25,257 bases of DNA, taken from NCBI GenBank assembly GCA_023515795.1, contig JALGPX010000155.1:1-25257 (forward strand), read 5' to 3'. The position numbers and the translations under genes are program-made. Source of the stretch: Amoeboaphelidium occidentale (taxonomy: Eukaryota > Aphelidiomycota > Aphelidea). Positions 3,048-22,758 of the stretch are shown one piece after another. Each line of letters begins with the position of its first letter. Position 1 is the stretch's first letter. The notes beneath the pieces were generated by a model, which saw only the letters and a list, made by a program, of their open reading frames with translations, did no database searches and was not told the DNA's origin.

Positions 3048-6000
3048 TCTTCTCGGTGGATAAGGTCTACCTGGAGGAGGCATCTGTCCATAAGGCTGTG
3101 GAGGCCTTTGTTGAGCCATCGGAGGAGGCATTCCATATTGCGGCATGTAAGGAGCCATTCCTGGTCTTGGCATCATTATTGGAGGTCTTTGCTGCTGATA
3201 CACATATGCAGGATTTGGTTGTGGAGGATAATACTGTCCTTGTTGTGGAATAGGATATCTCATCGGCATATTCATTGGCATTGGCCTCATGCCAGGCATC
3301 ATTGGCCTGAATGGCTGTTGACCCATACCTGCTGGAATGATATTTGATGGAGCTGGTTGCGCTTTTGGTTTCGAGGATTCCATAACAAACTGTTTGAACG
3401 CATTAATCACCATCATTACATCGGTGTAAGTTTTGTCCTTGTACTTGTAGCCAGCTGGAGTGATTGTAATACCACTAGCGTTCACTGGCTCTTTGACCCC
3501 CGTTTTATACATCAGCAAGAATATTCCAGGCGTACCAGAGAATCCAAGAATATATGGAATACGTTTTGGATTCGCCATAATTTCACGCTGCAAATGTTGT
3601 TCTAGTTCTTCCTTTGAAGATCTCACAAACTTTCCGTGGTTGATCAAACTCTTTGAGAACCCAACCATCGGCATTATGTATTGCTCGTAGATTTGATCCA
3701 AATCCGAAAATGTTTCATCGCCAATTCTCAATTTACGCCCTAACAAGATAAATTAGAAACAATTTCAAAATGCTTACCCAATGAATTCCTGTCTTCCTTC
3801 TCACTTTCTTTGATTTCAATATGCTGGAACACACCATCGGATATTTTCCAAGTTAATGACAAGTAATCTGTTCCTTGTGAAGAAGGACGGAACAAAACTT
3901 CACCCGGAGGCAACTTTGCAAGATACTCCTCTGCCTGCTGGAAATCATAATTGTGGAACAATGGATGCTGAATAGCTCTCTTGATAATGAAATGCCTTTT
4001 CTCTTCAGATCTAGTGTTGCTCTTATCTGCAGCCTTCTTTTCTGCTAGACGATTATGCCAGTGCTGGTCATGCATTGCCCGAGGTTCAACATATGAAGGA
4101 ACTTGCCTTGCTGTTAATTCAACATCGAATTTATCCTTCCTAACGGAAACAATCTTGGCAACAATTGTATCTCCTTCCTTGACAAATTCGTTTGCGTTTG
4201 CATTACTACTTATCGCAGCCTTATCAGACAAATTCTTGGCCATAATGAAACCAGTAACTCCGGATGGCAATCTAACACGCGCACTTGATGGCGATACTTT
4301 CAGAACAACACAAGCAACAACTTGTTTCTCTTCAATCTCATTATCACCAGTAAACATCAAAAAGACTTGATCCGGGGTTCCTGGCATGAACGTTTTCCTG
4401 ACATCTCTGTATGGCCAGCAAATTTCCTCCTTTATACGTTCCAAAACGTGCAACTTATCTTCATTCTTGGTCTGTTTCAAGAATTGCGCATAACCATGCA
4501 TATCTAAATGCTCAACATTCCGAACATACTCCATGTTTCTCATTACTTCTTCAACATGCTCACTCATATTTTCAGTACCTTCTGGCAATTCTTCAACCTT
4601 CATTGCATCAGCAGCAACTTTTCTAGCATACTGATAATTCTCTGGTGCAATGCGGGTTGCGTCCAAAACTTCAACTAAACGATGCCTTGATCGTTTCTGT
4701 TGTGTCGGGAATGGAAAGTAATGCAACTTCAGGAATGCAGAACAATTAGTCAAAACTTTGAGTCCCATATAAATAGGCTCACTAACCAACTGTGATCTAT
4801 CATGCAACACACCACGTGAAGATTCTCGCAAATGTGCCAAAATAGCAGTCGCCTTTCTTATCCCCAGTCCACAAACAAACTGCAACACAAACTGACCATA
4901 CTGCATCGCACATAACCTATTAATATCTGCACCAACAGAATTAACCAAATCAATCATTTCCCTCTCCAGTAAATCATAAAATTCATCATCAGAAAGGAAA
5001 TGTTGCAAATCATGCAGATTCAATTTACAAACATCACCAGTAGGCTGAACTTCTGATCGATTGAACAACAAACAATACTCAAACATTGGTTCCTGAGCAG
5101 TCCTGGCAACAGAGACACAATACCTCAATAGTGGAGAAAAACTAGGAAATTCCCGTTTTGCTTGATGACTATTCATGTATATCCTGCAGACATCATCTCT
5201 TGGCAAGTAGAAACAAGGCATTTCTTTAACAGTTCCATTATCATAATCATCACCATCATCTCCCATTTGTCCGTTTGCACCACCGCCACCACCGCCGTTA
5301 TCCTGCAATTCTTGTTGTACTTGTTTAGCAATCAATTGCAATTCTTCCATAATCTTTGCATTCTGCAGACCAAATCCTGCAACTACACAACAATCTATAG
5401 AATGATAATTATCTGCCAGAAATTTTTTCAGTATCTTCAAATCCTGTGCATACTTTTCTTTCAAGTGTGGTAAATGTATTGAATTCAATTTCAGAGTATC
5501 CTGAACTTGTCCATCATCATGCAACAAACACCCAAATGATGCATCTTTCAAATCACCTTGACCACAAGTCAGAGCAAAAACTCGAGCATAAGGCCGAACA
5601 AAGAAATCCCTTGGTCTAATTCCTTGATCACTACTGGAATTGTTATTGGAATTATAGTTTCTGATGGAGAATGGTTGTGTCCCAACTACTTTTTCTCTGT
5701 ACTCTGTAGATATTTCCTGTTTTAGCTTCTGCTGTGAGTACTCATGCAACTGTTGTCTTAGAAACTTTTGTACTTTTACAGACAATTCTTTCCATACTAA
5801 TTGCAATACTTCATTCCTTATAGCATTCCATTGTTCTGCTTCTTGTGATGTTTTATCAGACAATAAATACAGTCTCATTTCATCCAGTAATTCGCGTTCA
5901 GGTAGAATGAACTGAATCTTGACCATTTGCTGTTCTTCTGCTTGCTCCAGCACCAACCATTTCTGCCATTCTCTCTGAAAATCCTTTAAAGGCTTATCTC

Positions 6001-6116: not shown

Positions 6117-8163
6117 TTAATGGAAGTAGAAGAATCTATAGGATCTACATTCAATTTACATAATCCATACATTTTAGAATTAATTGAAAACTTCCTTCTA
6201 ATCTCACACATGAATTTATAATCATGCAATATTTCCTTTGCATAAATACTTCTTGTGATTTTGAGTAGAAGTTGTGATTGTGTCTTATCACTACCTCCTA
6301 CTCCTGCTGCTCCTGCTCCTAAATCATACTTGTGCTGATAAAAGAGACAATAATCTTCCGGAGACAACAACTCTTTAGATTCAGAAGATTCATCCTTGGG
6401 TGCATATATAATCTCTTGTGCACAATAATTCCTTACAAAATGATATGGAAGAAGACTATAACCATCCTGAAGGAATTCTCTAATGTTATACTTTTCATAA
6501 TTAGCAGAAATCAGATTGCGCCTTCTTCTCTTTCCAACATTCGAAGCAGCAGAAGCAGCAGAAACAGCAGCAGAAGAAGAATATCTGTATGAATAATAAG
6601 AAAGTAAATCATCAATTGAATCCATACAAACACAATTTCTCAATCTTTCTTCTTTAAAATCTTTCTGCAAGAGTAAATCATTCTCATCCACACCATGAAT
6701 TAACAACTTTTCCAATTGTTTAAACTTTCTGTAATACTCAAAATACTCCAAAAACAAATCATAAATCTTCCATACTAAATCTCTAACATTAAATTGTTGT
6801 TGTTGTTGTTGTTGTTGTTGTTCTAATGATAGAAGAGAAGATATCTTGTCTAATCTGTGACTAAGAATAAAAGGAACTTCCAATTGTTCTCTTGTAAATG
6901 CATCAAACAGATATTCCAAAGCATTAGAGATATTGTTAGAAGAAGAAGAAGAAGTAGTAGAAGTAGAAGTAGAATCTTGTAATAGTAATTGTTCATCCAT
7001 AACCAATACAGAAAGATTAGGAATAGAATTCAATACAAATTCCACAAACTCTTTAGAATCAGCAGTAGTAGCAGCAGTAGCAGTAGTAGCAGCAGTAGTA
7101 GAAATAAATTCCTTGTATTCTTCTACAGATTTTATAGACTGAATCTTCAACAATAATCTCTCTGGCATATCTTCACTTCNCTTGTAATAGTAATTGTTCA
7201 TCCATAACCAATACAGAAAGATTAGGAATAGAATTCAATACAAATTCCACAAACTCTTTAGAATCAGCAGTAGAAGTAGAAGTAGCAGTAGCAGCAGTAG
7301 TAGAAATAAATTCCTTGTATTCTTCTACAGATTTTATAGACTGAATCTTCAACAATAATCTCTCTGGCATATCTTCACTTCTGATGACGTCATCTTCTTT
7401 AGTAAAGAATTGACTCTTTAATTCTGAAGGTTCATAAATCTTTTTCAGTTCAGTCGTCTGATTGGTTGTTAAATCTTCTTCTTCTTCTTCTTCTTCTTCT
7501 ACTTCATTGTTATTGTTATCATACGCATAAGCATAATCATATTCTGTTCCATCTCCAAATAATTCAAATAATTCATTAGCCACAACGTCATCAGATTGTT
7601 TAACTGTAAAAGTTGTTTTTCTCTTCTTCTTTTTACTCTTGTTAAGTTCTTCTTCTTCTTCTTCTTCTTCTTCTTCTATAACTGCTGCTGCATTAGTATC
7701 TTCTTCAATGAAATCTGCCACGTCATCTTCCCGTTGCTCATCCTCAGAAGAAGAAGAATCTTGTTCAAATACTTTCATTAAATCAATTGTATTCTTCTTC
7801 TTATTATTATTATTATTATTGTTATTGTTATTATTATTGGATTGTAATCTTTTGAATCTTCCGCCTTCTTCTTCTTCTTTTTCTCCCATATTCTCTTTAA
7901 TTAAATCCAAATCTTCATCTTCCAATTCTTCTTCTGATGGATTAGAGGAATTAGAATTAGAANTTATTATTATTATTATTATTATTATTATTGGATTGTA
8001 ATCTTTTGAATCTTCCGCCTTCTTCTTCTTCTTCTCCTCCCATATTCTCTTTAATTAAATCCAAATCTTCATCTTCCAATTCTTCTTCTGATGGATTAGA
8101 GGAATTAGAATTAGAATTAGAATTAGAATCAGAATTAGAGGAGTTGTTTTCTTCTTGATTCAT
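3045..8163 (-). CDS. SPT6: Transcription elongation factor SPT6 (two exons; assembly broken twice in the 5' half)
   Basis: Histone chaperone and elongation factor that binds RNA polymerase II in the nucleus. Domains run in SPT6 order: acidic Asn/Glu-rich N-terminus with DEDLDLIKENMG; conserved IYEPSELKSQFF and SEDMPERLLLKI; YqgF-like domain (about 5600-5330); helix-hairpin-helix (about 4940-4800); S1 domain (about 4360-4110); tandem SH2 at the C-terminus, with GEVLFRPSS holding the expected phosphate-binding Arg; and a Pro/Met/Gln-rich tail. Exon 1 is 8163-3778 and exon 2 is 3739-3045, joined across a 38-nt phase-1 intron to read NSLGRKLRIGDE. The start ATG at 8163 precedes an Asn/Ser-rich leader. 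The frame shifts at N7180 and N7963, where contig ends are duplicated; dropping one copy (202 and 154 nt, each 1 mod 3) restores a single frame of about 1574 residues, a normal SPT6 length. I read this as an intact gene in a flawed assembly. Confidence 0.93.
3740..3777 (-). other. 38-nt intron in SPT6
   Basis: On the minus strand it starts GTAAGCA and ends TTGTTAG, with a CTAAT branch-like motif about 15 nt before the 3' end. It is phase 1: one G left by exon 1 plus GG from exon 2 makes a Gly codon. Removal joins the first SH2 to the second in the family's usual order, which strongly supports the intron. Confidence 0.9.
6073..6116. repeat. TAG trinucleotide repeat coding poly-Thr in SPT6
   Basis: About 14 units of the trinucleotide, read on the minus strand as ACT codons, give a run of about 14 Thr flanked by Asn. 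It is in frame with SPT6, so length changes would be tolerated. Confidence 0.8.
6794..6823. repeat. TTG repeat coding poly-Gln in SPT6
   Basis: About ten CAA codons on the minus strand, inside the N-terminal third of SPT6, in frame. Confidence 0.8.
6976..7179. repeat. Duplicated contig end in SPT6, copy 1
   Basis: 204 bp ending at N7180. It matches 7181-7381 except in a GTA/GAA-type repeat coding Thr/Ala/Ser, where the copies differ in sequence and by one codon in length. This is the pattern expected of two alleles, or of an unresolved microsatellite, left unmerged at overlapping contig ends. Confidence 0.85.
7180..7180. other. Single-N scaffold join inside SPT6
   Basis: The minus-strand SPT6 frame changes across this base because the 201-bp right-hand copy plus the N adds 202 nt (1 mod 3). 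Merging the two copies restores the frame. Confidence 0.9.
7181..7381. repeat. Duplicated contig end in SPT6, copy 2
   Basis: 201-bp partner of 6976-7179. It begins directly after the N and ends where unique SPT6 sequence (toward DDVIRSEDMPER) continues. Confidence 0.85.
7800..7962. repeat. Duplicated contig end in SPT6, copy 1 of the second join
   Basis: It runs from a TTA (poly-Asn) tract to N7963 and matches 7964-8116. The copies differ in the TTA/GTT tract length and at one site in the Glu-rich stretch (EKEEEE against GEEEEE after ENMG). Confidence 0.85.
7963..7963. other. Single-N scaffold join inside the SPT6 N-terminus
   Basis: The minus-strand frame from the ATG at 8163 changes here. 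Removing 7963-8116 (154 nt, 1 mod 3) joins the two parts in frame. As at 7180, the break sits at a low-complexity tract. Confidence 0.9.
7964..8116. repeat. Duplicated contig end in SPT6, copy 2 of the second join
   Basis: Partner of 7800-7962. It begins with the TTA tract and runs into the unique N-terminal coding sequence of SPT6. Confidence 0.85.
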
Positions 8164-8285
8164 TTTTGTAAAAGAAAAAGGGATTTCCTGATACGAGGAT
8201 ATTATCTTCTATCTCCAGCCTCTTCTAAATCACTTTTAATAACTTTCTTCATGGAATCCTTCGCCATTTGAAGCTGCTACATTGT

Positions 8286-8317
8286 GGTTGCAATAGTAAC
8301 TGTTTCATTACCAATCA
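8286..8317 (+). promoter_or_regulatory. Shared upstream module of the secreted gene cluster (gene 1)
   Basis: GGTTGCA at 8286-8292 and CCAATCA at 8311-8317, spacer 18 nt, 174 bp before the ATG at 8460. The same pair with an 18-19 nt spacer precedes all four cluster genes. Here the first half extends to GTTGC-AATA-GTAAC, an imperfect inverted repeat reminiscent of an RFX X-box. CCAATCA resembles a CCAAT box. The motif is seen; the factor is a guess. It lies in the SPT6 divergent region and could also affect SPT6. Confidence 0.6.
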
Positions 8318-8347
8318 TATTGTATTGTAATTGTTGCAGATGGAACC

Positions 8348-8375
8348 ATGTGATTCTATCCAGAAAATATAAAAA
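8348..8375 (+). promoter_or_regulatory. ATGTGATT element and TATA box of secreted gene 1
   Basis: ATGTGATT at 8348-8355 is followed by TATAAAAA at 8368-8375, about 85 bp before the ATG. Gene 2 has ATGTGATT (9591-9598) and AATAAATA (9610-9617) at almost the same distances from its CCAAT-like element (36-37 nt) and from each other. Confidence 0.55.
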
Positions 8376-8418
8376 GAGAGGATTCTCTCTCTATTGTAAA
8401 ATTTATTAATAATTCAAA

Positions 8419-8457
8419 TCTTATCTAATCTAATCTAATCTAATCTAATCTAATCTA
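8419..8457. repeat. TAATC pentanucleotide repeat in the 5' leader
   Basis: About seven units of a TCTAA/TAATC pentamer end directly before the start codon of secreted gene 1, probably in its 5' UTR. No other gene here has it. Confidence 0.8.
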
Positions 8458-8459
8458 TA

Positions 8460-9305
8460 ATGGTCAAGTCTTTTGGTTTATTGAAATCTTCTTCTTCTTC
8501 TTCTGCTTCTTCAGCGCTATTGGTGTCTTTGCTATTGGTTTACTGCATTTTGTTTAATGCTGTTTCAGTTGGTGCATTGCCTGGTCGTTCATCAGGTTCA
8601 TCAGGTAGAAGTTCTTCATCATCATCATCATCTTCTTCTTCTGCTTCATCTGTTGCATCTTTAAGAGCTGGTTCTTCTGTTTCAAAGCCTGGATCTATTG
8701 CCCAATCTCTCAGGCCACAAAGTATTACTCCACCTCCTCCTCCTGCTGCTGCTGCTGCAGTACCTCTAAATAATGCTGCAAAGTTAACTCTCATGCAGAG
8801 AATGAAGAATTTTTTTACACCAAAAAGGGCTAATGCTGGTGCAACAGTGAATACAAGACAGGTTCAGCCTCAGCCTCAAACACAGCCTCAGCCTCAACCT
8901 CAGACTGTTGCTCCTAGAGGTGGTAAAACTACTGCTGCCACTGCTGCTGGTTTAGCTTTAGTTGGTGGTTTAGCCGTTGCTGGTGGCGTTGCTGGTGCTG
9001 TTACTGGTGGTATTGCTTTGGATAAGGCTAATAAGGCTCAATCTGCTGCTGCACAAGCTATTGAAGGTGCAGAGAATGCAAATACTCCAGCTGCTATTAT
9101 TCCTACATCTGCCACAAATCAGGATATTCCAGCTCCAGATCAGCCAGCAACACTTCAACAAGCAGTACAACAAGTTCCAGTGTTTTTGAATGGATTAGCA
9201 TCATCAGCAGTAGCATCAGCAATACCACAGCAGCTGCAACAAATACAACAAGCAGCAACAACAGGACCATTAACAGTTATTCCATCATTGAATACAGTAT
9301 TCTAA
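8460..9305 (+). CDS. Secreted low-complexity protein 1 (novel tandem family)
   Basis: 281 residues; I do not recognise it. A Ser-rich N-region is followed by a hydrophobic core (ALLVSLLLVYCILF) and a likely signal-peptidase site after VGA at about residue 39. The mature chain has Ser-rich, Pro/Ala and Gln-Pro tracts. Then comes a Gly/Ala hydrophobic helix with GxxxG spacing (GLALVGGLAVAGGVAGAV, about 163-180) that could insert in or pack against a membrane, then an Asn/Gln-rich tail ending LNTVF. Residues 146-229 are encoded by a block nearly identical to one in the next gene. It is the first of four tandem genes of similar layout with a shared upstream module. AATAAA lies at 9339-9344. A wall, matrix or effector-like surface role is possible but not shown. 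Confidence 0.8.
   Translation: MVKSFGLLKSSSSSSASSALLVSLLLVYCILFNAVSVGALPGRSSGSSGRSSSSSSSSSSSASSVASLRAGSSVSKPGSIAQSLRPQSITPPPPPAAAAAVPLNNAAKLTLMQRMKNFFTPKRANAGATVNTRQVQPQPQTQPQPQPQTVAPRGGKTTAATAAGLALVGGLAVAGGVAGAVTGGIALDKANKAQSAAAQAIEGAENANTPAAIIPTSATNQDIPAPDQPATLQQAVQQVPVFLNGLASSAVASAIPQQLQQIQQAATTGPLTVIPSLNTVF
8895..9146 (+). repeat. 252-bp block shared with secreted gene 2 (copy 1)
   Basis: It matches 10085-10336 with a single difference (8958 T against 10148 G, Leu to Val). The left edge lies in a Gln-Pro simple repeat. Flanking sequence is far more diverged, including the adjacent conserved PVFLNGL, in which 4 of 7 codons differ synonymously. Confidence 0.92.
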
Positions 9306-9661
9306 ATACTTGATTACTGTTGCGGAAAATATCAAAAGAATAAATTATACGTTTTAAAATTATAATTATATTTGCTGTATTTACAAAGAATCTCTCTCCA
9401 TCATCCTATCTATTAACAAGGAATCTGTCTAATAACAACGATTAGATGCGCGACTCTATTGCTATGGACTTTTTAAGAATTATTCTTTTCTAATTTTTTC
9501 TTTATTTCATTTGTTGTTGTAACCTTGTGGTTGCATGTTGTAACGGTAACATGCCGAATCAAATTGAATCATACCATCTGACATGCGACAATGTGATTTT
9601 CAAGACTGAAATAAATAGCTCGGTTCTATGAATCCTTTTTTTATAATACAAAAAAAATAAT
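9306..9661. promoter_or_regulatory. Intergenic region between secreted genes 1 and 2
   Basis: 356 bp. It holds the AATAAA of gene 1 at 9339-9344, AT-rich sequence, and the promoter of gene 2: GGTTGCA (9529-9535), CGAATCA (9555-9561), ATGTGATT (9591-9598) and the TATA-like AATAAATA (9610-9617). I see no further gene. Confidence 0.55.
9529..9561 (+). promoter_or_regulatory. Shared upstream module of the secreted gene cluster (gene 2)
   Basis: GGTTGCA at 9529-9535 and CGAATCA at 9555-9561 (one base off CCAATCA), spacer 19 nt, 133 bp before the ATG. TGTAACC just upstream and GTAAC just downstream of GGTTGCA make imperfect inverted repeats around it. Confidence 0.55.
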
Positions 9662-10480
9662 ATGAAATTTGTTTGCATTGCTATAGCATTACTATCTATC
9701 GTGTCTCAAGCTGCTCCAGTCAAGGGGATTACCAAACAAACAGGTTCAAGACATACAACAACAAGGACTAGACCAGCATCAGGTGGTGCTGCTGCTTCAA
9801 GTGCACTAGGTCATCCAGGTGGTTATCAACCAAATCCTTTCGCTGGTATGAAACTTGATCAACTTGGAGTCAAGAACACTGCTCATGGTACTGGTGGCGG
9901 TACTGCTGCTAGTGCTGCAAACCTAAGAAGGGCAATGGAGTCAGCTGCAAACAAAAAAGCAGCAGTTGGTTCCTCTACACCAGCAAGAGCATCATCTACA
10001 TCTGAAAGTTTCAAATCGGTACAATCACAAACAATTCGTGCTAAGGAAATCCCTCCTGCAAACCCACAACCTCAGCCTCAACCACAACCTCAGACTGTTG
10101 CTCCTAGAGGTGGTAAAACTACTGCTGCCACTGCTGCTGGTTTAGCTGTAGTTGGTGGTTTAGCCGTTGCTGGTGGCGTTGCTGGTGCTGTTACTGGTGG
10201 TATTGCTTTGGATAAGGCTAATAAGGCTCAATCTGCTGCTGCACAAGCTATTGAAGGTGCAGAGAATGCAAATACTCCAGCTGCTATTATTCCTACATCT
10301 GCCACAAATCAGGATATTCCAGCTCCAGATCAGCCAACACAACAACAAGGAATAATTCCAGCAGCTGCACAAATCCAAAATATTCCATCCACTGCTCCTG
10401 TTTTTTTGAATGGCCTTCGGTCTCCACAGTTGCCAAATAGCCTCTCTGGAACACTTCCACCACTCAATCCGCTATTCTAA
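9662..10480 (+). CDS. Secreted low-complexity protein 2 (novel tandem family)
   Basis: 272 residues, not recognised. A short classical signal peptide (MKFVCIAIALLSIVSQA) has a likely cut before APVKG. A Gly/Ala/Ser/Thr-rich region follows, then a Gln-Pro tract, then residues 142-225 nearly identical to gene 1, including the Gly-zipper hydrophobic helix and the predicted short helix KANKAQSAAAQAIEGAENA. The tail is diverged but keeps PVFLNGL and ends LNPLF, like LNTVF in gene 1, so the two are true paralogues and not just carriers of one inserted block. The N-terminal half shows no similarity to gene 1. The upstream module and TATA spacing match gene 1. Confidence 0.8.
   Translation: MKFVCIAIALLSIVSQAAPVKGITKQTGSRHTTTRTRPASGGAAASSALGHPGGYQPNPFAGMKLDQLGVKNTAHGTGGGTAASAANLRRAMESAANKKAAVGSSTPARASSTSESFKSVQSQTIRAKEIPPANPQPQPQPQPQTVAPRGGKTTAATAAGLAVVGGLAVAGGVAGAVTGGIALDKANKAQSAAAQAIEGAENANTPAAIIPTSATNQDIPAPDQPTQQQGIIPAAAQIQNIPSTAPVFLNGLRSPQLPNSLSGTLPPLNPLF
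10085..10336 (+). repeat. 252-bp block shared with secreted gene 1 (copy 2)
   Basis: 251 of 252 bases match 8895-9146, with the offset constant at 1190 bp. The identity at synonymous sites argues for recent gene conversion or duplication of this segment only. Confidence 0.92.
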
Positions 10481-10615
10481 TAGATATCTTGAAGTATAAT
10501 ATCATGTTTTACATATCTTTAACGCATTCCGCTGATGTGTGACAGTAAATATTTCCATGAACTATGTAGGACTTTAAAGCAACACAGAAGTGTAGAAGGC
10601 ACAATGAAATGTTAC

Positions 10616-10648
10616 GGTTGCAAGATCCAAAACGAAATGGCCCAATCA
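10616..10648 (+). promoter_or_regulatory. Shared upstream module of the secreted gene cluster (gene 3)
   Basis: GGTTGCAAGATCCA begins at 10616 and CCAATCAAA begins at 10642; the spacer between GGTTGCA and CCAATCA is 19 nt. It lies 117 bp before the ATG, the same distance as in gene 4, which has the same extended halves. Confidence 0.65.
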
Positions 10649-10732
10649 AAACTCCATATCACGTTTCGCTGCTACGACGGCAAGTAACCTTAAAAGCAAG
10701 CAAAAGCAGCTTCATAGCATTCTTTCTTAAGA

Positions 10733-11248
10733 ATGAAATATCTTATCTCTTTTGTCGTGTTGTTTTACGCCGCTTACGCGCCTCCTCCCCCATTAACTAG
10801 AAGTCCAGCACTCCCAAGAAATCCAGCTCCTGCTGGTTCAAATACTCAACACTTTTCCAACATGTTTGGAGGTTTGGGAAAACCTGCTCCTCTGCCTATT
10901 CCTGGAGCTGCTGCTGCTATTCAAATGTCGGCGTCTACCCAGAACCAAATGGCTGCAGCTGCAATTGCAAGAGCACAAACTGGGAATCCATCAGTTTTGA
11001 ATGCTCAAGCGACAAGCGGACGTCCAGTATCTGCTTCAGGACCTGTTCCACAAGCAAGACCAGAATCACAACGTTCGCCGTCCTCTGTTAATTCATTTGG
11101 CTCCTCTTCATCCAGCGCATCTAGTGTTCCAACAAAAGGCTCATTGGTTCGTAAACTTGTACCATCAGCGGGACTACTAGCTGTCAGTACCGTAGTTGCC
11201 GGCGTATTTGGCCATGAACTCGCTACCAAGAAAAAAGGATCTCCCTAA
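10733..11248 (+). CDS. Secreted low-complexity protein 3 (novel tandem family)
   Basis: 171 residues, not recognised. The signal peptide MKYLISFVVLFYAAYA is followed at once by PPPP. The body is Pro/Ala/Ser/Gln-rich and includes a Ser run (about 121-131). Near the C-terminus lies one hydrophobic segment (AGLLAVSTVVAGVFG) flanked by basic residues (VRKLV before, ATKKKG after), consistent with a membrane anchor. It aligns loosely with gene 4: Pro-rich start, SGRPVSASG against NSRPISAG, Ser-rich linker, terminal helix. AATAAA at 11305-11310 is a likely poly(A) signal. Function unknown. Confidence 0.75.
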   Translation: MKYLISFVVLFYAAYAPPPPLTRSPALPRNPAPAGSNTQHFSNMFGGLGKPAPLPIPGAAAAIQMSASTQNQMAAAAIARAQTGNPSVLNAQATSGRPVSASGPVPQARPESQRSPSSVNSFGSSSSSASSVPTKGSLVRKLVPSAGLLAVSTVVAGVFGHELATKKKGSP

Positions 11249-11304
11249 ATAGAGTTCATTGAAAAATCGAAATGAAAGCAAATCAAACTATACTCTAGGA
11301 AACT

Positions 11305-11310
11305 AATAAA
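11305..11310 (+). terminator. Poly(A) signal of secreted gene 3
   Basis: AATAAA lies 57 bp after the stop codon of gene 3 and before the promoter module of gene 4, the expected order. Confidence 0.45.
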
Positions 11311-11375
11311 AAATATTTGAGAAATGCTCGTATCCCATACGTTCTGTTTGATTTCAAAGTAACCCGAAAGGATTT

Positions 11376-11408
11376 GGTTGCAAGATCCACCTTTGGAAAG
11401 ACCAATCA
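11376..11408 (+). promoter_or_regulatory. Shared upstream module of the secreted gene cluster (gene 4)
   Basis: GGTTGCAAGATCCA begins at 11376 and CCAATCAAA begins at 11402, spacer 19 nt, 117 bp before the ATG. Spacing, extended halves and distance to the start are identical to gene 3, while the bases between are mostly different. Confidence 0.65.
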
Positions 11409-11492
11409 AACAAATATGTCGACGTTCCATATTTGCAACAAAGAAACCAAAGCCCATAATACATGCTTAATATGGATAATTCTTTTTCATAA

Positions 11493-12065
11493 ATGAAACT
11501 ACTAATCTTTATCTCTCTAATTTCTGTTGCTATTGCTCCTCCTCCGGTCGTTCCAAGACCAGTAACTGGTACTACAGTGAACACAATCCCGATTGGACAA
11601 CCGATGGCAGCTGGTTCAGTCGCCATCGGAGTTCCTATAAGGCCGCCAAATAATCCTGCTTTAGCAAATGGCGGAATCAGTAATGCCAGGGCAGCGCAAC
11701 ATGTTGCCACCACAAGAGATTTCATGCGTGCTTTGGAATTGCAACGAGTTCAACCAAGAGGACCGGCTCCTATTCGCCCTCAGACAGTGATAACTTCGCC
11801 AGCAAACGGCGCAGCAAACTCCCGTCCGATCTCAGCGGGTTTGGGAACAGGGCTTTCCAGTCCTATACAAAATCCTAATACTATTGGCGCAGGAAGAGTT
11901 GTACCTTCTCGTTTAGGGTCAGCATCATCGATATCAAGCACCTCTTCTGGCGTTTCCAGAAGTTTAGTCTCAGGGACTTTTGCATTTGAGATTTTGAGTG
12001 GTCTAGGTCTTCTTGTTGCTTCCGGGATTGCGGCTGGTGTTGCTGTTTCCCAGACTGGAAAATGA
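11493..12065 (+). CDS. Secreted low-complexity protein 4 (novel tandem family)
   Basis: 190 residues, not recognised. The signal peptide MKLLIFISLISVAIA is followed by PPPVVPRP, as in gene 3. The body is Pro/Ala/Gly/Asn/Ser-rich with little charge. A Ser-rich linker leads to a C-terminal hydrophobic Gly-zipper-like helix (LSGLGLLVASGIAAGVAV) and a very short tail (SQTGK). A GPI-type signal is an alternative reading of the C-terminus, since the chain ends soon after the hydrophobic stretch. AATAAA at 12112-12117 is the probable poly(A) signal. It is the last gene of the cluster and converges with the AlkD-like gene 65 bp away. Confidence 0.75.
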   Translation: MKLLIFISLISVAIAPPPVVPRPVTGTTVNTIPIGQPMAAGSVAIGVPIRPPNNPALANGGISNARAAQHVATTRDFMRALELQRVQPRGPAPIRPQTVITSPANGAANSRPISAGLGTGLSSPIQNPNTIGAGRVVPSRLGSASSISSTSSGVSRSLVSGTFAFEILSGLGLLVASGIAAGVAVSQTGK

Positions 12066-12130: not shown

Positions 12131-13015
12131 TCAAATTAATCTTTTTGACATGTAGCTTTTTCGTTTAGTTGCCGTCATCTTCTCAATAGCATATCTGAGC
12201 ATAACTTTAGGCATTTTCTCAGCGTTCTTATCGAGGAATTGTTCCAAGACAGTCTTCTTTTGCTTCCAAACTTCTCTCAGCATCCAGCCAGTGGCTTTAT
12301 GAATGAGATCATGATTCCCTGCTTTACCAAAAGGAGTCTTATCAACATTAATTTGATCAAGCACCGAGCCTGCCAACATGAGAATCTCGTTGAATCTTCC
12401 TGCCTTGATCAAAGCCCAAGTAGAGACTATGGCTATTCTCCGAGGCCAAACACCTAAAGTATTTGATTTTCCTTCTGTCAAAGTGACATTGTCGATATCA
12501 AACGCTGATACTTCAATGTGATATCGAGAAGCTAGCGACTTGAGGCAATCTTTCCAACCATCCGAAACAAGTGCAGTCAACACAACAGTATGATCAATAA
12601 TATCATCGCCACCCATGATCATGTAATCTCCCAAAATGTAATGCGCAGAACAGTCAACAAGGTCCCAATTACACAGCAACTCACAACAACTCAAATACTC
12701 CAAAACAATCTTCAACGTCAACTTTGCATCGAGAAGCTTTTTACTATTCTCATACTTCTTGACAAAAGCCAGGCATCCCAGCATCTTCTCTTCATGATAG
12801 TCACTCAGAAGCCAACCATTAATCTGTTCGGATAAAGGCATATTAAGAAAGTATTGCATATTATCACCCAAAAGCTTTCTAAGCTCTGGCATCTGAACAC
12901 CATAAAACAATTCACCATCGCCGTAGTCACCCGGTTTAGTCTGAAAGAAGCTCTGAAGTATTTTTGCCTTTTGAGGTTTCTGAAGTGCGCGCAGTTCTGT
13001 CTTGACTCTTTCCAT
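12131..13015 (-). CDS. AlkD-like DNA alkylation repair enzyme (HEAT-repeat DNA glycosylase)
   Basis: 294 residues from the ATG at 13015 (MERVKTELRAL). The frame stays open to another ATG at 13078, but that start lies beyond the divergent neighbour's start, and the family usually begins about here. Family signatures: GDYGDGELFYGVQMPELRKL (AlkD GYGEGD/GVRVPDLR type) near 29-48; NWDLVD at 116-121, giving the Trp (117) and catalytic Asp (121) of the W-x-x-x-D motif; and WPRRIAI near 190, giving the conserved Arg (193). AlkD removes N3- and N7-alkylated purines without base flipping; eukaryotic homologues occur in scattered protists and some animals. The stretch between Asp and Arg is about 35 residues longer than in bacterial AlkD. 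All key residues are present, so activity is likely. Confidence 0.82.
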   Translation of the reverse strand: MERVKTELRALQKPQKAKILQSFFQTKPGDYGDGELFYGVQMPELRKLLGDNMQYFLNMPLSEQINGWLLSDYHEEKMLGCLAFVKKYENSKKLLDAKLTLKIVLEYLSCCELLCNWDLVDCSAHYILGDYMIMGGDDIIDHTVVLTALVSDGWKDCLKSLASRYHIEVSAFDIDNVTLTEGKSNTLGVWPRRIAIVSTWALIKAGRFNEILMLAGSVLDQINVDKTPFGKAGNHDLIHKATGWMLREVWKQKKTVLEQFLDKNAEKMPKVMLRYAIEKMTATKRKSYMSKRLI

Positions 13016-13031
13016 TCTTTCAGTTGATTGT

Positions 13032-14537
13032 ATGGAAAAGAGACAATTTGAGGAATTATCCGCGGTCATTGACGACATTCTGAAGCCAAAGTTCCATGAG
13101 CGAATTCAAAAGTGCGCAGAATTAAATGAAAGAGTGGATTCACTTTACTACGGTGTCTGTGAGGCTGAGCAGCTGATTAAATCGTGTCTGGTTCGATTGA
13201 ACATGTTGTCTGATAGCAGAAGGGTTTCCGCAGAAGAGGGCACAGCTGTAATTGAATTCCGATCGCCTTTACTTGCGGCTGGACATGCTGAAGATGTTCC
13301 GTTGGAGGCTCGCTGTCACGAATTACCAAAATTTGAAAGCAAGTTGCCAAATTTCCCGTTGTATGGTTCTGTTGACTTTTATGATGACACTTGGCTAAAT
13401 GGAAAGAGTGCACATGATGTTTTACCTAAAGCTGAAAGGAAGGAAGAATTTCCAGAGGTTCCGAAAGATACTTCTGTCGTAAAGTCTTTGCTTGATAAGG
13501 TTGAAGGTGATTCAGATAAGGATGATTACCAAATTAAGCTCAAAGATGAAGTTTTAGATGATAATCCGTTTATGGCTGATTATCCATCAGAACAAGTTGA
13601 ATCCATGCAAACATCACCGCGAAGTTCTAATGCAGCAAGTTTGTTCAGAAAGAAACCTGTTGGTGGCGTTCCAGTGTTTTCAGAATCTGTAGATGATCAA
13701 CTACGTAAACGAACAGTTTCAAATGGTTCGGCTTATGAGGCAATAGCAGAAGCTGCGAACACTGCTATTGCTGTTTCAAATGCATCGAAGCGACCAAATG
13801 AATTATTCTCGTCGCTCTTTGAAGATGATGATAATGACAAATTTCTTGGTTCTAGTAGCAAATCTGTTACATTTAAAGAACAAGATAAGAAGGTGAATGA
13901 AAAGTTATCCAGCTTGTTGGTTGATGCAAAACCATCTGTTCCTGAATACGTTCCTGCTCCAGTACCTGTCAGTGATACCTTAAATAAGAATCCATGGGCA
14001 TCTTCCGAATCTATTGGAGACTCCACAGCTGATTTAGTTCTGCCTGCGATGGGCAGCACCGATTATTTGGTAACTTCGAAAACTAAATCAAGACCAAGGC
14101 CCGCCAGATTGCAAAAGTTAAGCAACACGCCTAAATCCCCGGCTACTGGCAGTTCTTCTCCACGAGATACAGTGTCTCCAAAGAACAAACTCAAAGTTTT
14201 GTTTGATGATATGGAAGGCGCATCGCCATATTCTCCTAATCCTTTTGTTTCAACATCTAATGTGATAGAAAACAAGGCTGAAAGCAAAATGAGCTCCTTG
14301 TTTGATCGAAAGAATGAAGAGGATACCAGAAAGGAATTGAGTTCTAGCGGACTGTTTACAGCGCCGAAGGAAAGCAAAGCTATTTCATCTACTTCTAAGG
14401 CTGACCTATTTGGAGATGCAAAAGAAGATAAATCATCTAAGCCTACAACCATCAACTCAAGCTCATTATTTGGGGATGAAGATAATAGCGCAGTTAATCG
14501 AAGTAAACTGTTAAAAAGTCTCTTCGACGAAGACTAA
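13032..14537 (+). CDS. Acidic LF-motif protein, possibly a short FAM21 (WASH complex subunit 2)
   Basis: 501 residues from the ATG MEKRQFEEL; an upstream TTG in frame is not needed. The N-terminal 70 residues look helical (FHERIQKCAELNERVDSLYYG), ending in a segment (LNMLSDSRRV) that loosely recalls the FAM21 head. The rest is disordered and acidic with spaced LF motifs: SLFEDDDNDKF, VLFDDMEGAS, SLFDRKNEED, DLFGDAKEDK, SLFGDEDNS and the final SLFDED. FAM21 uses such repeats on endosomes to bind retromer and capping protein. Two NPF tripeptides could bind EH domains. The length is less than half of animal FAM21, and the head similarity is weak. Another endocytic adaptor is a fair alternative. 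Its start lies 16 bp from that of the divergent AlkD-like gene. Confidence 0.5.
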   Translation: MEKRQFEELSAVIDDILKPKFHERIQKCAELNERVDSLYYGVCEAEQLIKSCLVRLNMLSDSRRVSAEEGTAVIEFRSPLLAAGHAEDVPLEARCHELPKFESKLPNFPLYGSVDFYDDTWLNGKSAHDVLPKAERKEEFPEVPKDTSVVKSLLDKVEGDSDKDDYQIKLKDEVLDDNPFMADYPSEQVESMQTSPRSSNAASLFRKKPVGGVPVFSESVDDQLRKRTVSNGSAYEAIAEAANTAIAVSNASKRPNELFSSLFEDDDNDKFLGSSSKSVTFKEQDKKVNEKLSSLLVDAKPSVPEYVPAPVPVSDTLNKNPWASSESIGDSTADLVLPAMGSTDYLVTSKTKSRPRPARLQKLSNTPKSPATGSSSPRDTVSPKNKLKVLFDDMEGASPYSPNPFVSTSNVIENKAESKMSSLFDRKNEEDTRKELSSSGLFTAPKESKAISSTSKADLFGDAKEDKSSKPTTINSSSLFGDEDNSAVNRSKLLKSLFDED

Positions 14538-14644: not shown

Positions 14645-15688
<1,044 letters not shown>

Positions 15689-17672: not shown

Positions 17673-19196
17673 ATGAATTTCATAAGCAGAATCGCAGTGA
17701 TACTCGCGCTGTGCACAATTGCAAGTGCAATACGTCTTATATATCCGGAATCTGGTTCAATACTGTACATCAACGAAGAGCCAGATGGAATACATTTGAA
17801 CGCGCCATTTTACGTGGAACTTGAAGACAACGAAAGAATTGACCCAACTGAAGGCGTGTTCATAACGCTATCATCACATGTTAAGCCATCTTTACAATCG
17901 TTCTGCATTCCTTTCGAGGTTACTGTTCCTTCTGGATCAGCGAAGCCGCGCCTTGATGGTGTGATGTATTTGGGACAAGATGACACGAAATTCTTGGATG
18001 GATTATACAATGTTACTTTGGTTGACTCTTGCGATAAAGGAAAGGCAAAGTTTGTATATGCTCATAGACGTGATGTTCGATTTGTAAGACTGAACGGACG
18101 CGATAATGAGATGAAGGATATCAAAGTTTTGGCTCTTAATGGTATTCATATAAGTATGCAGTTGAAGGGTTACTATTACACAGGAAAGCCTATAAAATTT
18201 ACTCTTTTTGATATGCGCACACTCAAGGAAGTGTTTGTATGGGAGAAGACTTTCTTTGGCTCGGAAACGAAAGAGCAGGAATATGTGGAGTACGCATTTA
18301 CCATGCCGGTCCCTCAGGATGTTGCTGGATGGTATTTCCTCGGAATTGAGAACGGAGGTAGTATTTATATGTGGAAGTCTTTGCCACTATTTTTTGCACC
18401 TAAAGGCATCTCTATTGGTAATACTTTGGCACTTCCAAAACATTCATTGATGAACTATAATGGATTTGAGAAAGACTTGATCTATGCTTTATTAAAGGAT
18501 GGCTGGAATGATATGCTGTTCTATTTGCTTAAACAGAGCGGATCCTTCTTCTTTCACGATGGCGATTTACTGTCTTATGCTATTCTTGCTTCTAATAAGG
18601 AAATGCTCAAGTATTCACTTGATAACGAAAACATAAAGTATCTCGATGAGAAAGTTCCGACACTCGGTTCAGAAAAAGAAAAGAAATCTTTTCGTTCATA
18701 TGGGAACGTTATCACGAAGCAGAATATGTTTGACAGTGTGGTTCTAGGAGAGGATTACCGAAGTTTGGTTACTTCTTTGGCAGAGACTAATTTAAGACAA
18801 GCCGCAAATCAGCTGTTTAGATCTTCATCGTTTATGTCATGGTTGTTCTTACAGAGAAGGTTAGAAGCATGTCTGGCTCCAAACTTATACTCAGAGTCAT
18901 TTATGGAGGCGTTTCATAAATGCCCAAACTGTTTGGCTGTGGTGATACTAAACGGAATCGTAGAAGGTCCATTCTATCCTGATCATGATAAGAGCGTGAA
19001 AGTTAAGAAGAATGGCTGCAAGAAGAATGAGGAGTACATTTATACTAAACTGAAGAATAATGAAATATTCCCAACCGAAGAACAATATCGTGTAGCCCTA
19101 AAAGCAGCCAAGTACGTCATGTCATACTTTCCTGAAAAATCTTCGTGGGTGGAACTCATACTCCAAAGGCTTCCAAGTGAGACTGGCATGAAGTAA
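17673..19196 (+). CDS. Secreted or ER-luminal protein of unknown family
   Basis: 507 residues, not recognised. A clear signal peptide (MNFISRIAVILALCTIASA, cut before IRL) and no later membrane segment. The N-terminal half (about 20-240) has a beta-rich look with short charged turns (LIYPESGSILYI, IKVLALNGIHISMQLKGYYY), compatible with an immunoglobulin- or beta-sandwich-like fold. The C-terminal half is helical (FEKDLIYALLKDGWNDMLF, LLSYAILASNKEMLKYSLD), with some ankyrin-like spacing. A CPNC pair lies at about 411-414 and isolated cysteines elsewhere could form disulfides. No KDEL-type ending: it closes ETGMK. The stop is followed at once by AATAAG-like sequence, and the next gene starts 30 bp on. 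Confidence 0.75.
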   Translation: MNFISRIAVILALCTIASAIRLIYPESGSILYINEEPDGIHLNAPFYVELEDNERIDPTEGVFITLSSHVKPSLQSFCIPFEVTVPSGSAKPRLDGVMYLGQDDTKFLDGLYNVTLVDSCDKGKAKFVYAHRRDVRFVRLNGRDNEMKDIKVLALNGIHISMQLKGYYYTGKPIKFTLFDMRTLKEVFVWEKTFFGSETKEQEYVEYAFTMPVPQDVAGWYFLGIENGGSIYMWKSLPLFFAPKGISIGNTLALPKHSLMNYNGFEKDLIYALLKDGWNDMLFYLLKQSGSFFFHDGDLLSYAILASNKEMLKYSLDNENIKYLDEKVPTLGSEKEKKSFRSYGNVITKQNMFDSVVLGEDYRSLVTSLAETNLRQAANQLFRSSSFMSWLFLQRRLEACLAPNLYSESFMEAFHKCPNCLAVVILNGIVEGPFYPDHDKSVKVKKNGCKKNEEYIYTKLKNNEIFPTEEQYRVALKAAKYVMSYFPEKSSWVELILQRLPSETGMK

Positions 19197-20538: not shown

Positions 20539-22758
20539 ATGTCGGAAGCCTGGCGCTCCAAAAAACTTTCACAGATTCAACAACAACGCCCGCTATCAAA
20601 GTTCGCTGCGGATATGATTTCAGATCATTACTCTTCAATGAAGCACAGCTCGCCAAAGATCAAAAGAAGAATCTCTTTTAATTCACAGTTACAATCAACT
20701 CCATCCAGGACAAATGTAATGGAGCTGCGAGATGGTAAAGAAATTGATACAACACCGACATCGAAAATGTTCAAGACAAGATCAGCCATGCCTTTTGTTA
20801 GTAATCCTCCAAGTTCAATTCACCGACAAAGTGGAATGATGCCTGGTGGAGCTGATGATGAAGTTGATGCACTGGATTGGGGTATGGAAGGGTTTCAGTT
20901 GGTCGCTGATACTCCTCAGCCAAAAGAAGAAAAGGAAAACATTAGCCACCGTAGTTCCCCATTCCTTCAACGATTTACTTCGAGGACAATGTTTGCTGGA
21001 TCATCAGGAATGGCATCAGACAAGACAGTCAGGTACAGTCTTACAGGAAGAAGCAGAATAGCGAAACCAACACCTTTATTGCACTCACAGATTGTTAAAG
21101 AAGAAGAGGCACAGTTTTCTGAAGAAGATGAGCAGCCTGGAGAGGAGTATGAAGAAGAGCTTTTACCGCAAGCCCATGACGATCATGAAATGCCAACATT
21201 CCAGTATCCTTCAAGAAAATGGAATTTGGTTGATTACTTGGCATGGCTAACTGACACTCTGCACCTCAATTGGGAATCGCCTTTCATTGCTTTACTGTTC
21301 ATCTTGAAGGCTGGCAAGTTTGTTGCGACGCTGGCGTTTCAACTGATGGTTGGTTCACTGCAATTAATGAAACTTCTTTATCACAAGAACAAGCTGATCT
21401 TCGCTGGAATTGTTTCATTGGCAGCATTGTCTTTGATTTATAGATGGTCTCCTTCTAGCCCAGATCCCAAACAATCTGTTGATCCACTGGTTACACAAGT
21501 TTCACAAGACACATCCGCGATTTTAGTCGCGAGAACTGAACAAGATGAAATTCCATCTATTAAAATTGAAGCTAATGAAATCAAGAAGGATATCACTGAA
21601 AAAACGTTTGTGAAAGAAGCATTGAGCGACGTCGAACAGAGAATGTTGATGCTTGAACGAAAACTTCGAGATATTCCTAAAGAAACTATTTCAGGAAATA
21701 ACAAACAAATTGTAACTCTAAGCAATGCAATACTTAACATCACGAATATCGTTACCAAGATCCAAGATGATTTACAGAAACTTAAACAACAAGGCACAAT
21801 TCAATCACAAAACTCTCCCAGTGTTGATCATTCACTTATACAAGATATGGTTCAAAACTATACGAAACAATTTGTGTCACAAGAGACTGATAAATCAAAT
21901 GTTCTTGACGAAGATAAGGTTGCTTCAATGATTTCGAAAGAATTGAACGCAGTAAAGAAGGAGATGGTTGACAAGGATTTTGTTATTTCATATGTTCTTG
22001 ATACTGTAGCTAATCAAACAACGTCGGATACACATGCCTCTAAACTAAGCCAAGATGGTCCTGATTATGCCTTGCACTCATCTGGAGCCAGAGTGTTGAG
22101 ATATGGAGGAATGACTTCGAAAGTTTTTGTAGATGATTCGGAGTACTCTTCAAGAAAGAAAAAGAGAGGACTTCTTGGAGTGCTTAAGAGCATCATATTT
22201 GACAATGGTGTAACAAAAGAACCTCCACCGATGGCTAATCCTCCTGAAGTTTCACTTAAAGCTGACAATCACTTGACACCTGGTAGTTGTTGGTATTTCA
22301 ATGGCAAGAAAGGATTCTTTACTTTCATTCTTTCTAAACCCGTTGTCCCCAAGTTCCTTACCTTCCACCACGTTTCACCTCTTTTATGGCCTGACTATTC
22401 ATGTGCTCCTAAAAACTTTGAAGTTTGGGGAATGCAATTAAGAGACAAAGATCGTTCTCTATTAAAGTATTCATACCGAAGATCTCTTTACGATCGTGGT
22501 TTGTTGGAACACATTTATGATTCTTTCGTTGACACGCTGCCTGTGGATGGAAATGTTCCTGAAGGAAAGAGTTTCTTAATAGCGAATGCAACGACATCAA
22601 TATTAAATGACAGCGATTATATTACAGAAAATTTTGATTTAAATCTAGAAAAAGAATTAGATATTGTACAAATAAGATTTCTGGATAATTATGGAAACAA
22701 CAACTTTACATGCTTCTACCATCTATCAGTTCATGGACAAGAAGTTCCGGAATACTAA
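20539..22758 (+). CDS. SUN-domain inner nuclear membrane protein
   Basis: 739 residues. The C-terminal SUN domain (about 510-739) is clear: PDYALHSSGARVLRYGG, TPGSCWYFNGKKGFF, FHHVSPLLWPDYSCAPKNFE, VQIRFLDNYGNNNFTCFYHL and a final SVHGQ. Known for the family: SUN trimers in the perinuclear space bind KASH peptides and link chromatin to the cytoskeleton (LINC complex). The N-terminal 240 residues are basic to acidic and disordered, expected nucleoplasmic. Two hydrophobic stretches (about 248-275 and 286-302) give one or two spans, followed by a helical, coiled-coil-like stalk (about 345-500). A basic insertion (SRKKKRGLLGVLK) sits early in the SUN domain. It converges with the PUF60-like gene, with 12 bp between stop codons. 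Confidence 0.93.
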   Translation: MSEAWRSKKLSQIQQQRPLSKFAADMISDHYSSMKHSSPKIKRRISFNSQLQSTPSRTNVMELRDGKEIDTTPTSKMFKTRSAMPFVSNPPSSIHRQSGMMPGGADDEVDALDWGMEGFQLVADTPQPKEEKENISHRSSPFLQRFTSRTMFAGSSGMASDKTVRYSLTGRSRIAKPTPLLHSQIVKEEEAQFSEEDEQPGEEYEEELLPQAHDDHEMPTFQYPSRKWNLVDYLAWLTDTLHLNWESPFIALLFILKAGKFVATLAFQLMVGSLQLMKLLYHKNKLIFAGIVSLAALSLIYRWSPSSPDPKQSVDPLVTQVSQDTSAILVARTEQDEIPSIKIEANEIKKDITEKTFVKEALSDVEQRMLMLERKLRDIPKETISGNNKQIVTLSNAILNITNIVTKIQDDLQKLKQQGTIQSQNSPSVDHSLIQDMVQNYTKQFVSQETDKSNVLDEDKVASMISKELNAVKKEMVDKDFVISYVLDTVANQTTSDTHASKLSQDGPDYALHSSGARVLRYGGMTSKVFVDDSEYSSRKKKRGLLGVLKSIIFDNGVTKEPPPMANPPEVSLKADNHLTPGSCWYFNGKKGFFTFILSKPVVPKFLTFHHVSPLLWPDYSCAPKNFEVWGMQLRDKDRSLLKYSYRRSLYDRGLLEHIYDSFVDTLPVDGNVPEGKSFLIANATTSILNDSDYITENFDLNLEKELDIVQIRFLDNYGNNNFTCFYHLSVHGQEVPEY

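Follow-up and report, generated by a model that had tools for sequence, protein, structure and literature searches.

Tandem arrays of small, lineage-specific secreted proteins are a familiar class in fungi, and many of those described are cysteine-rich. In the Microsporidia, the ptp1 and ptp2 genes of Encephalitozoon form a cluster whose products are both rich in cysteine, PTP1 being acidic and PTP2 basic (PMC10229552). Here we describe four tandem genes in a 25,257-nucleotide stretch of DNA from the aphelid Amoeboaphelidium occidentale (hereafter the window), which is the whole of contig C25 (GenBank JALGPX010000155.1) in a genome of 11,314,846 bases in 204 contigs. An earlier note on this stretch had read the four as a single, locally expanded family of small secreted proteins. 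All four open reading frames (ORFs), of 281, 272, 171 and 190 residues on the plus strand, were found where that note had placed them; they fall into two families, A and B, lying downstream of a common and nearly private promoter module.

Four genes and two families

Gene 1 (8460..9305, plus strand, 281 residues) opens with a long, serine-rich, signal-like segment, carries a predicted glycine-rich helix at about residues 163-181 and ends in LNTVF; gene 2 (9662..10480, plus strand, 272 residues) has a signal-like start, a predicted glycine-rich helix at about residues 159-177 and the ending LNPLF. Genes 3 (10733..11248, plus strand, 171 residues) and 4 (11493..12065, plus strand, 190 residues) likewise have signal-like starts, with predicted helices at about residues 142-160 and 167-185, followed by a short basic tail in gene 3 and by SQTGK in gene 4. 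A short tandem TCTAA repeat at 8414-8459 abuts the start codon of gene 1. Each protein combines a hydrophobic N-terminus with one further hydrophobic stretch, a predicted layout of exported type in 4/4 genes. The single later helix claimed by the earlier note is predicted in every gene, although its placement near the C-terminus fails for genes 1 and 2, where it lies mid-protein. When the bodies were shuffled 1000 times and the best 19-residue hydropathy windows compared, the observed window was equalled in 25, 5, 6 and 35 of 1000 shuffles for genes 1, 2, 3 and 4, respectively.

Genes 1 and 2 share a central block of 83 codons with one base difference (8898..9146 and 10088..10336, both plus strand), the core of a 285-base repeat at 96% identity. 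Outside it they have little in common beyond the word PVFLNGL and their endings, so that the shared block and LNxxF endings noted previously are both present. Across 77 residues of the block, a single position separates gene 1 from gene 2, whereas nine separate gene 2 from its orthologue P0002, which suggests gene conversion or a (partial) duplication of very recent date. A further gene of this family, g5 (139 residues), lies on contig C188 (L042:4559-4978) and was reached in genome searches with modest expectation values (E) of 9.8e-4 with gene 2 and 0.0195 with gene 1. It shows an APTKG start (APVKG in gene 2), a glycine-rich helix, an LDKAxKA segment and a final F. Against local shuffles (residues shuffled within blocks of ten in signal-less chains, 1000 controls), the scores of the gene 1-gene 2, gene 1-g5 and gene 2-g5 pairs were equalled 0, 0 and 1 times, respectively. 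Genes 1, 2 and g5 are one family (A), alike beyond shuffles in the glycine-rich helix and the LDKAxKA segment that follows it. No other gene of family A type was found in the 9.9 kb around g5.

Family B consists of genes 3 and 4, which have 34% identity, a common signal/APPP start and a score equalled by 0/500 plain and 4/1000 local shuffles. Their likeness had been claimed before, as had a mature chain starting with PPP; on the latter point, the chains may start 1-2 residues before PPP, since proline is disfavoured directly after a signal cleavage site. For the pairs gene 1-gene 3, gene 1-gene 4, gene 2-gene 3 and gene 2-gene 4, the score was equalled in 66, 314, 668 and 804 of 1000 local shuffles of signal-less chains, and in 7, 141, 95 and 326 of 500 plain shuffles of full chains. 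The sole marginal pair, gene 1-gene 3 (7/500), rose to 92/500 when the first 20 residues were removed. Because no pair between A and B clearly exceeds its shuffled controls, the four genes are two families and not one, and the single-family reading was rejected on these controls; A and B may still share a remote origin.

A genome search with g5 also gave a weak match (E 0.35) on contig C46, to the first of three tandem small genes (c46a, c46b and c46c; L041:3092-4608; 124, 84 and 150 residues) with signal-like starts and predicted glycine-rich helices, none of which has a Pfam match. Of these, c46a and c46b are mutually related (0/1000 local shuffles). Scores with g5 were equalled in 0/1000 plain and 81/1000 local shuffles for c46a, and in 0/1000 plain and 3/1000 local shuffles for c46b, which points to a weak tie of this pair to family A. 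The helices of these two genes fall below the hydropathy cut used, and the layout of the trio is only partly similar to that of the four-gene cluster. Kinship of c46c with gene 1 is not claimed (0/1000 plain but 136/1000 local shuffles). The proposed local expansion is therefore upheld by the gene 1-2 block and the gene 3-4 pair, but it is not purely local, given the relative on C188 and the partly similar trio on C46.

A layout rule, set after the genes had been seen (signal-like start, exactly one later helix, at least 40% A/G/P/S/T/Q, at most 320 residues), selected all four genes and 6/31 ATG-initiated ORFs in the whole window, the other two (3987-4370, plus strand; 21438-21740, minus strand) being antisense to longer genes. 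It selected 1/12 ORFs in L041, 1/5 in L042 and 0/49 in 17 other genome loci (53,015 bases), those loci being chance pattern matches and housekeeping matches rather than random draws.

Protein searches covered a space of 5.8 billion proteins, of which the 7,994-7,996 candidates sharing most words were scored. Among 7,996 scored candidates, gene 2 returned itself and P0002 (85% identical); the family B search returned the two window proteins together with P0004 (gene 4) and P0006 and P0007 (gene 3). P0002, P0004 and P0006 come from a metagenome relative, and P0007 is a further relative of gene 3. Each of the former three reports one contig of 5,286 bases; judging from this equal length they are probably on the same contig, and the cluster would therefore be kept in a relative. 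A family A profile added nothing further among the scored candidates, and gene 1 and the C188 copy were not among the matches listed, which concerns the scored candidates only and carries no inference that a gene 1 orthologue is absent. Against the relatives, identical columns number 246/277 for gene 2, 149/176 for gene 3 and 167/191 for gene 4, and frame, start and helix are kept. In gene 4, eleven consecutive blocks (columns 41-150) are identical at 9 or 10 of 10 positions, with lower values in the first block (6/10) and in columns 161-170 (4/10).

Given these orthologues and the further gene 3 relative, genes 2, 3 and 4 encode conserved, real proteins. Low-complexity sequence can remain open by chance, and gene 1 has no orthologue in hand outside the common block; nevertheless, the amino-acid conservation of genes 2, 3 and 4 makes spurious ORFs very unlikely for those three, and hardly credible as an account of the locus.

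None of the four proteins passes a Pfam or NCBIfam cut-off, in keeping with the earlier description of an unrecognised family. In Pfam-A, the only sub-threshold match among the four was gene 1 with PF20616 (15.4 vs 22.1), and the C188 copy matched PF13663 below threshold (14.1 vs 27); NCBIfam gave no match for six proteins. A non-exhaustive search of literature titles and abstract openings found no description of either family there. Families A and B thus match nothing in the libraries searched; tandem lineage-specific small secreted proteins are themselves a familiar kind. Searches of the genome with genes 3 and 4 each returned only the query, and such searches miss distant paralogues, since these two genes, 34% identical, did not find each other. 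Viral contigs were likewise scanned for relatives of gene 2, with 600 pattern matches but 0 relatives.

The promoter module

Upstream of all four genes, the word GGTTGCA is followed by C(C/G)AATCA with start-to-start spacings of 25, 26, 26 and 26 bases. The module of gene 1 occupies 8286..8317 (GGTTGCA and CCAATCA at -174/-149) and that of gene 2 occupies 9529..9561 (-133/-107, with the variant CGAATCA); those of genes 3 and 4, at 10616..10648 and 11376..11408, both stand at -117/-91, and all four are on the plus strand. In the window outside 8131-12065 (21,321 bases, both strands), GGTTGCA occurs 0 times, GGTTGC five times, CCAATCA twice and CCAATC three times. Across the genome, the strict pattern GGTTGCA N10-30 CCAATCA was found at three places, upstream of genes 1, 3 and 4 (reversed control, 0). 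A looser pattern, GGTTGC N18-21 CVAATC, was found at ten, four of them these promoters; the other six look like chance, because the reversed control gives eight. The sequence GGTTGCAAGATCC with at most one mismatch was found at eight genome places versus three for its control, and exactly only at the gene 3 and gene 4 promoters.

The HAP/NF-Y complex classically binds CCAAT. TATA-like words stand at -92 in gene 1 and at -53 in gene 2, and the same pattern found none upstream of gene 3 or gene 4. Before the C188 gene, CCAAT is at -103 and GCAACC at -69, an arrangement that differs from the module; upstream of the C46 genes, stretches of 180-254 bases each were scanned on both strands and contain neither word.

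The module might instead be a by-product of tandem duplication with no regulatory role, the genes being expressed independently. Promoter similarity is indeed strongest within each pair: over 200-base upstream regions, genes 1 and 2 beat 300/300 shuffles and genes 3 and 4 beat 299/300. However, the module is common to both families at the same spacing, while upstream similarity between the families does not exceed that of shuffles (248, 133, 174 and 218 of 300 equal the score in the four cross pairs), and we regard this by-product account as quite improbable. The co-regulation proposed in the earlier note gains support at the DNA level from a common, nearly private upstream module, which is also the less usual part of the present finding. 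In linking two unrelated families, it leads to the concrete prediction that they are expressed, and function, together.

A putative set of surface proteins

We tentatively favour, at a little under an even chance, the reading that the four genes are expressed jointly and encode basic, disordered surface or wall proteins anchored in the membrane. The signal peptide would take each protein into the secretory pathway. The cysteine-poor, basic chain, rich in Pro/Ala/Ser/Gly, would be unfolded and displayed outside the cell, in or through a chitinous wall, and would probably be O-glycosylated. The helix, rich in Gly/Ala at small-xxx-small spacing (which in genes 1 and 2 makes a glycine zipper), would be embedded in the membrane and pair with its like. 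The common module, at near-fixed spacing, would switch on all four genes together, probably in one life stage.

Several features speak for this surface-protein reading. The layout favours it, with a signal-like start and one later helix in 4/4 proteins, as do the frame, start and helix kept in the relatives of genes 2-4 and the presence of the module at 4/4 promoters. An unfolded basic chain is suggested by the composition of the five bodies scanned (genes 1-4 and the C188 copy), which hold 0 N-glycosylation sequons and 13-20 Lys+Arg vs 2-9 Asp+Glu, together with 0-1 cysteine per whole protein. A chitinous-wall setting is suggested by the two genome places that match the chitin synthase family PF01644 above the cut-off. 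In gene 2, glycines at 171, 175 and 179 have, as read from the sequence, GxxxGxxxG spacing, a motif with a role in helix packing; P0002 has alanine at the first of these positions. AlphaFold models built from few sequences are consistent with disorder, as no residue reaches a predicted local distance difference test score (pLDDT) of at least 70 in either gene 2 (3 sequences, mean 45.2, helices at 3-15 and 81-99) or gene 4 (5 sequences, mean 48.1, helices at 2-13, 62-85 and 162-188). The gene 4 helix at 162-188 favours a membrane helix. C-terminally, GPI-anchored (glycosylphosphatidylinositol-anchored) wall proteins end in a hydrophobic segment without a polar tail; by eye, short polar or basic tails come after the helices of family B, and about 50-100 residues after those of family A, which would speak against such an anchor.

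Other observations weigh against this reading. The helices are moderately hydrophobic, being equalled by 0.5-3.5% of shuffles, and the roughly 50-100 residues that follow the family A helix leave its topology ambiguous. In the gene 2 model no continuous helix forms at 159-177, with fragments at 161-166 and 186-189 only, and models of such low confidence are proof of neither disorder nor a membrane helix. Simple inheritance may account for the module within each pair. The strict and looser patterns were derived from these promoters and match here by construction; the informative part is that two families have the module in 4/4 promoters, at one spacing and at hardly any other genome place.

The same proteins could instead be released to act on a host or prey cell, as effectors or membrane-active glycine-zipper proteins whose helix enters a foreign membrane. 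They are small, basic, apparently lineage-restricted, tandem and equipped with glycine-rich helices, and contact-killing bacterial surface proteins with glycine zippers are known (PMC5380434). However, the middle of gene 4 is nearly unchanged between relatives, unlike a fast-evolving effector, and we consider this role unlikely. We judge to the same degree unlikely a structural role outside the membrane, in a wall, tube or adhesive, with glycine-rich self-assembly, as a counterpart of the microsporidian polar tube proteins. Such a role would suit Pro-rich proteins from clustered genes, in line with the clustering of ptp1 and ptp2 and the basic PTP2 (PMC10229552), and the missing continuous helix in the gene 2 model. 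PTP1 and PTP2 were nonetheless rejected as matches on cysteine content and charge: the same source gives both many cysteines and makes PTP1 acidic, as against 0-1 cysteine and Lys+Arg well above Asp+Glu here.

A bolder extension of the favoured surface-protein reading is that two unrelated families under one nearly private cis-regulatory module supply the two components of a single membrane or wall assembly, packed through its helices, at the surface of a chitin-making microbe, with further sets of similar layout elsewhere in the genome (C188, C46). We hold this to be rather improbable.

Genomic setting and comparison with described systems

The window has a GC content of 39.5%, and its gene content around the four genes is eukaryotic, with Pfam matches to Spt6, SUN-domain, DnaJ, RRM, kelch, GT25, epimerase, DNA-alkylation-repair and ribosomal L3 families. 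The rest of the window had been described as unrelated housekeeping genes; this fits most of the neighbours, but for two (13002-14537 and 17673-19196) no Pfam match exceeds the cut-off. The epimerase neighbour (14675-15688) is GDP-L-fucose synthase-like by its solved relatives, and two contigs filed as viral (L020 and L021) encode relatives of this protein with best-segment identities of 49 and 46%. At 7000-8120, in the 5' part of the Spt6 gene, single N bases at 7180 and 7963 are flanked by near-identical neighbouring copies (117 bases at 95% and 153 bases at 97%), and the N-terminal coding part of that gene is present twice. The region has the look of an assembly artefact, in which two haplotype or contig ends were joined, rather than of biology.

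Few parts of small, uncultured eukaryotes are as sparsely annotated as their taxon-restricted surface and secreted proteins, and the layout seen here (signal, basic linker, Gly-rich helix, Pro-rich tail) offers a handle on members missed by ordinary homology search.

Compared by description only, the cluster resembles microsporidian PTP1/PTP2 in that those are secreted, low-complexity proteins of clustered genes, divergent between species, with a basic PTP2 (PMC10229552). It differs in having 0-1 cysteine, a basic composition and an internal glycine-rich helix, where PTP1/PTP2 have many cysteines and PTP1 is acidic. The Caulobacter glycine-zipper proteins of contact-dependent killing (PMC5380434), likewise compared by description, are two exported, surface-associated proteins with a glycine zipper; theirs is a bacterial killing system. 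With the lineage-specific tandem small secreted proteins of fungi, the four genes share a signal-like start, the absence of a Pfam match, tandem arrangement and apparent taxon restriction; many of the fungal proteins are cysteine-rich, whereas those described here carry a predicted membrane-type helix and lie under a common, nearly private promoter module.

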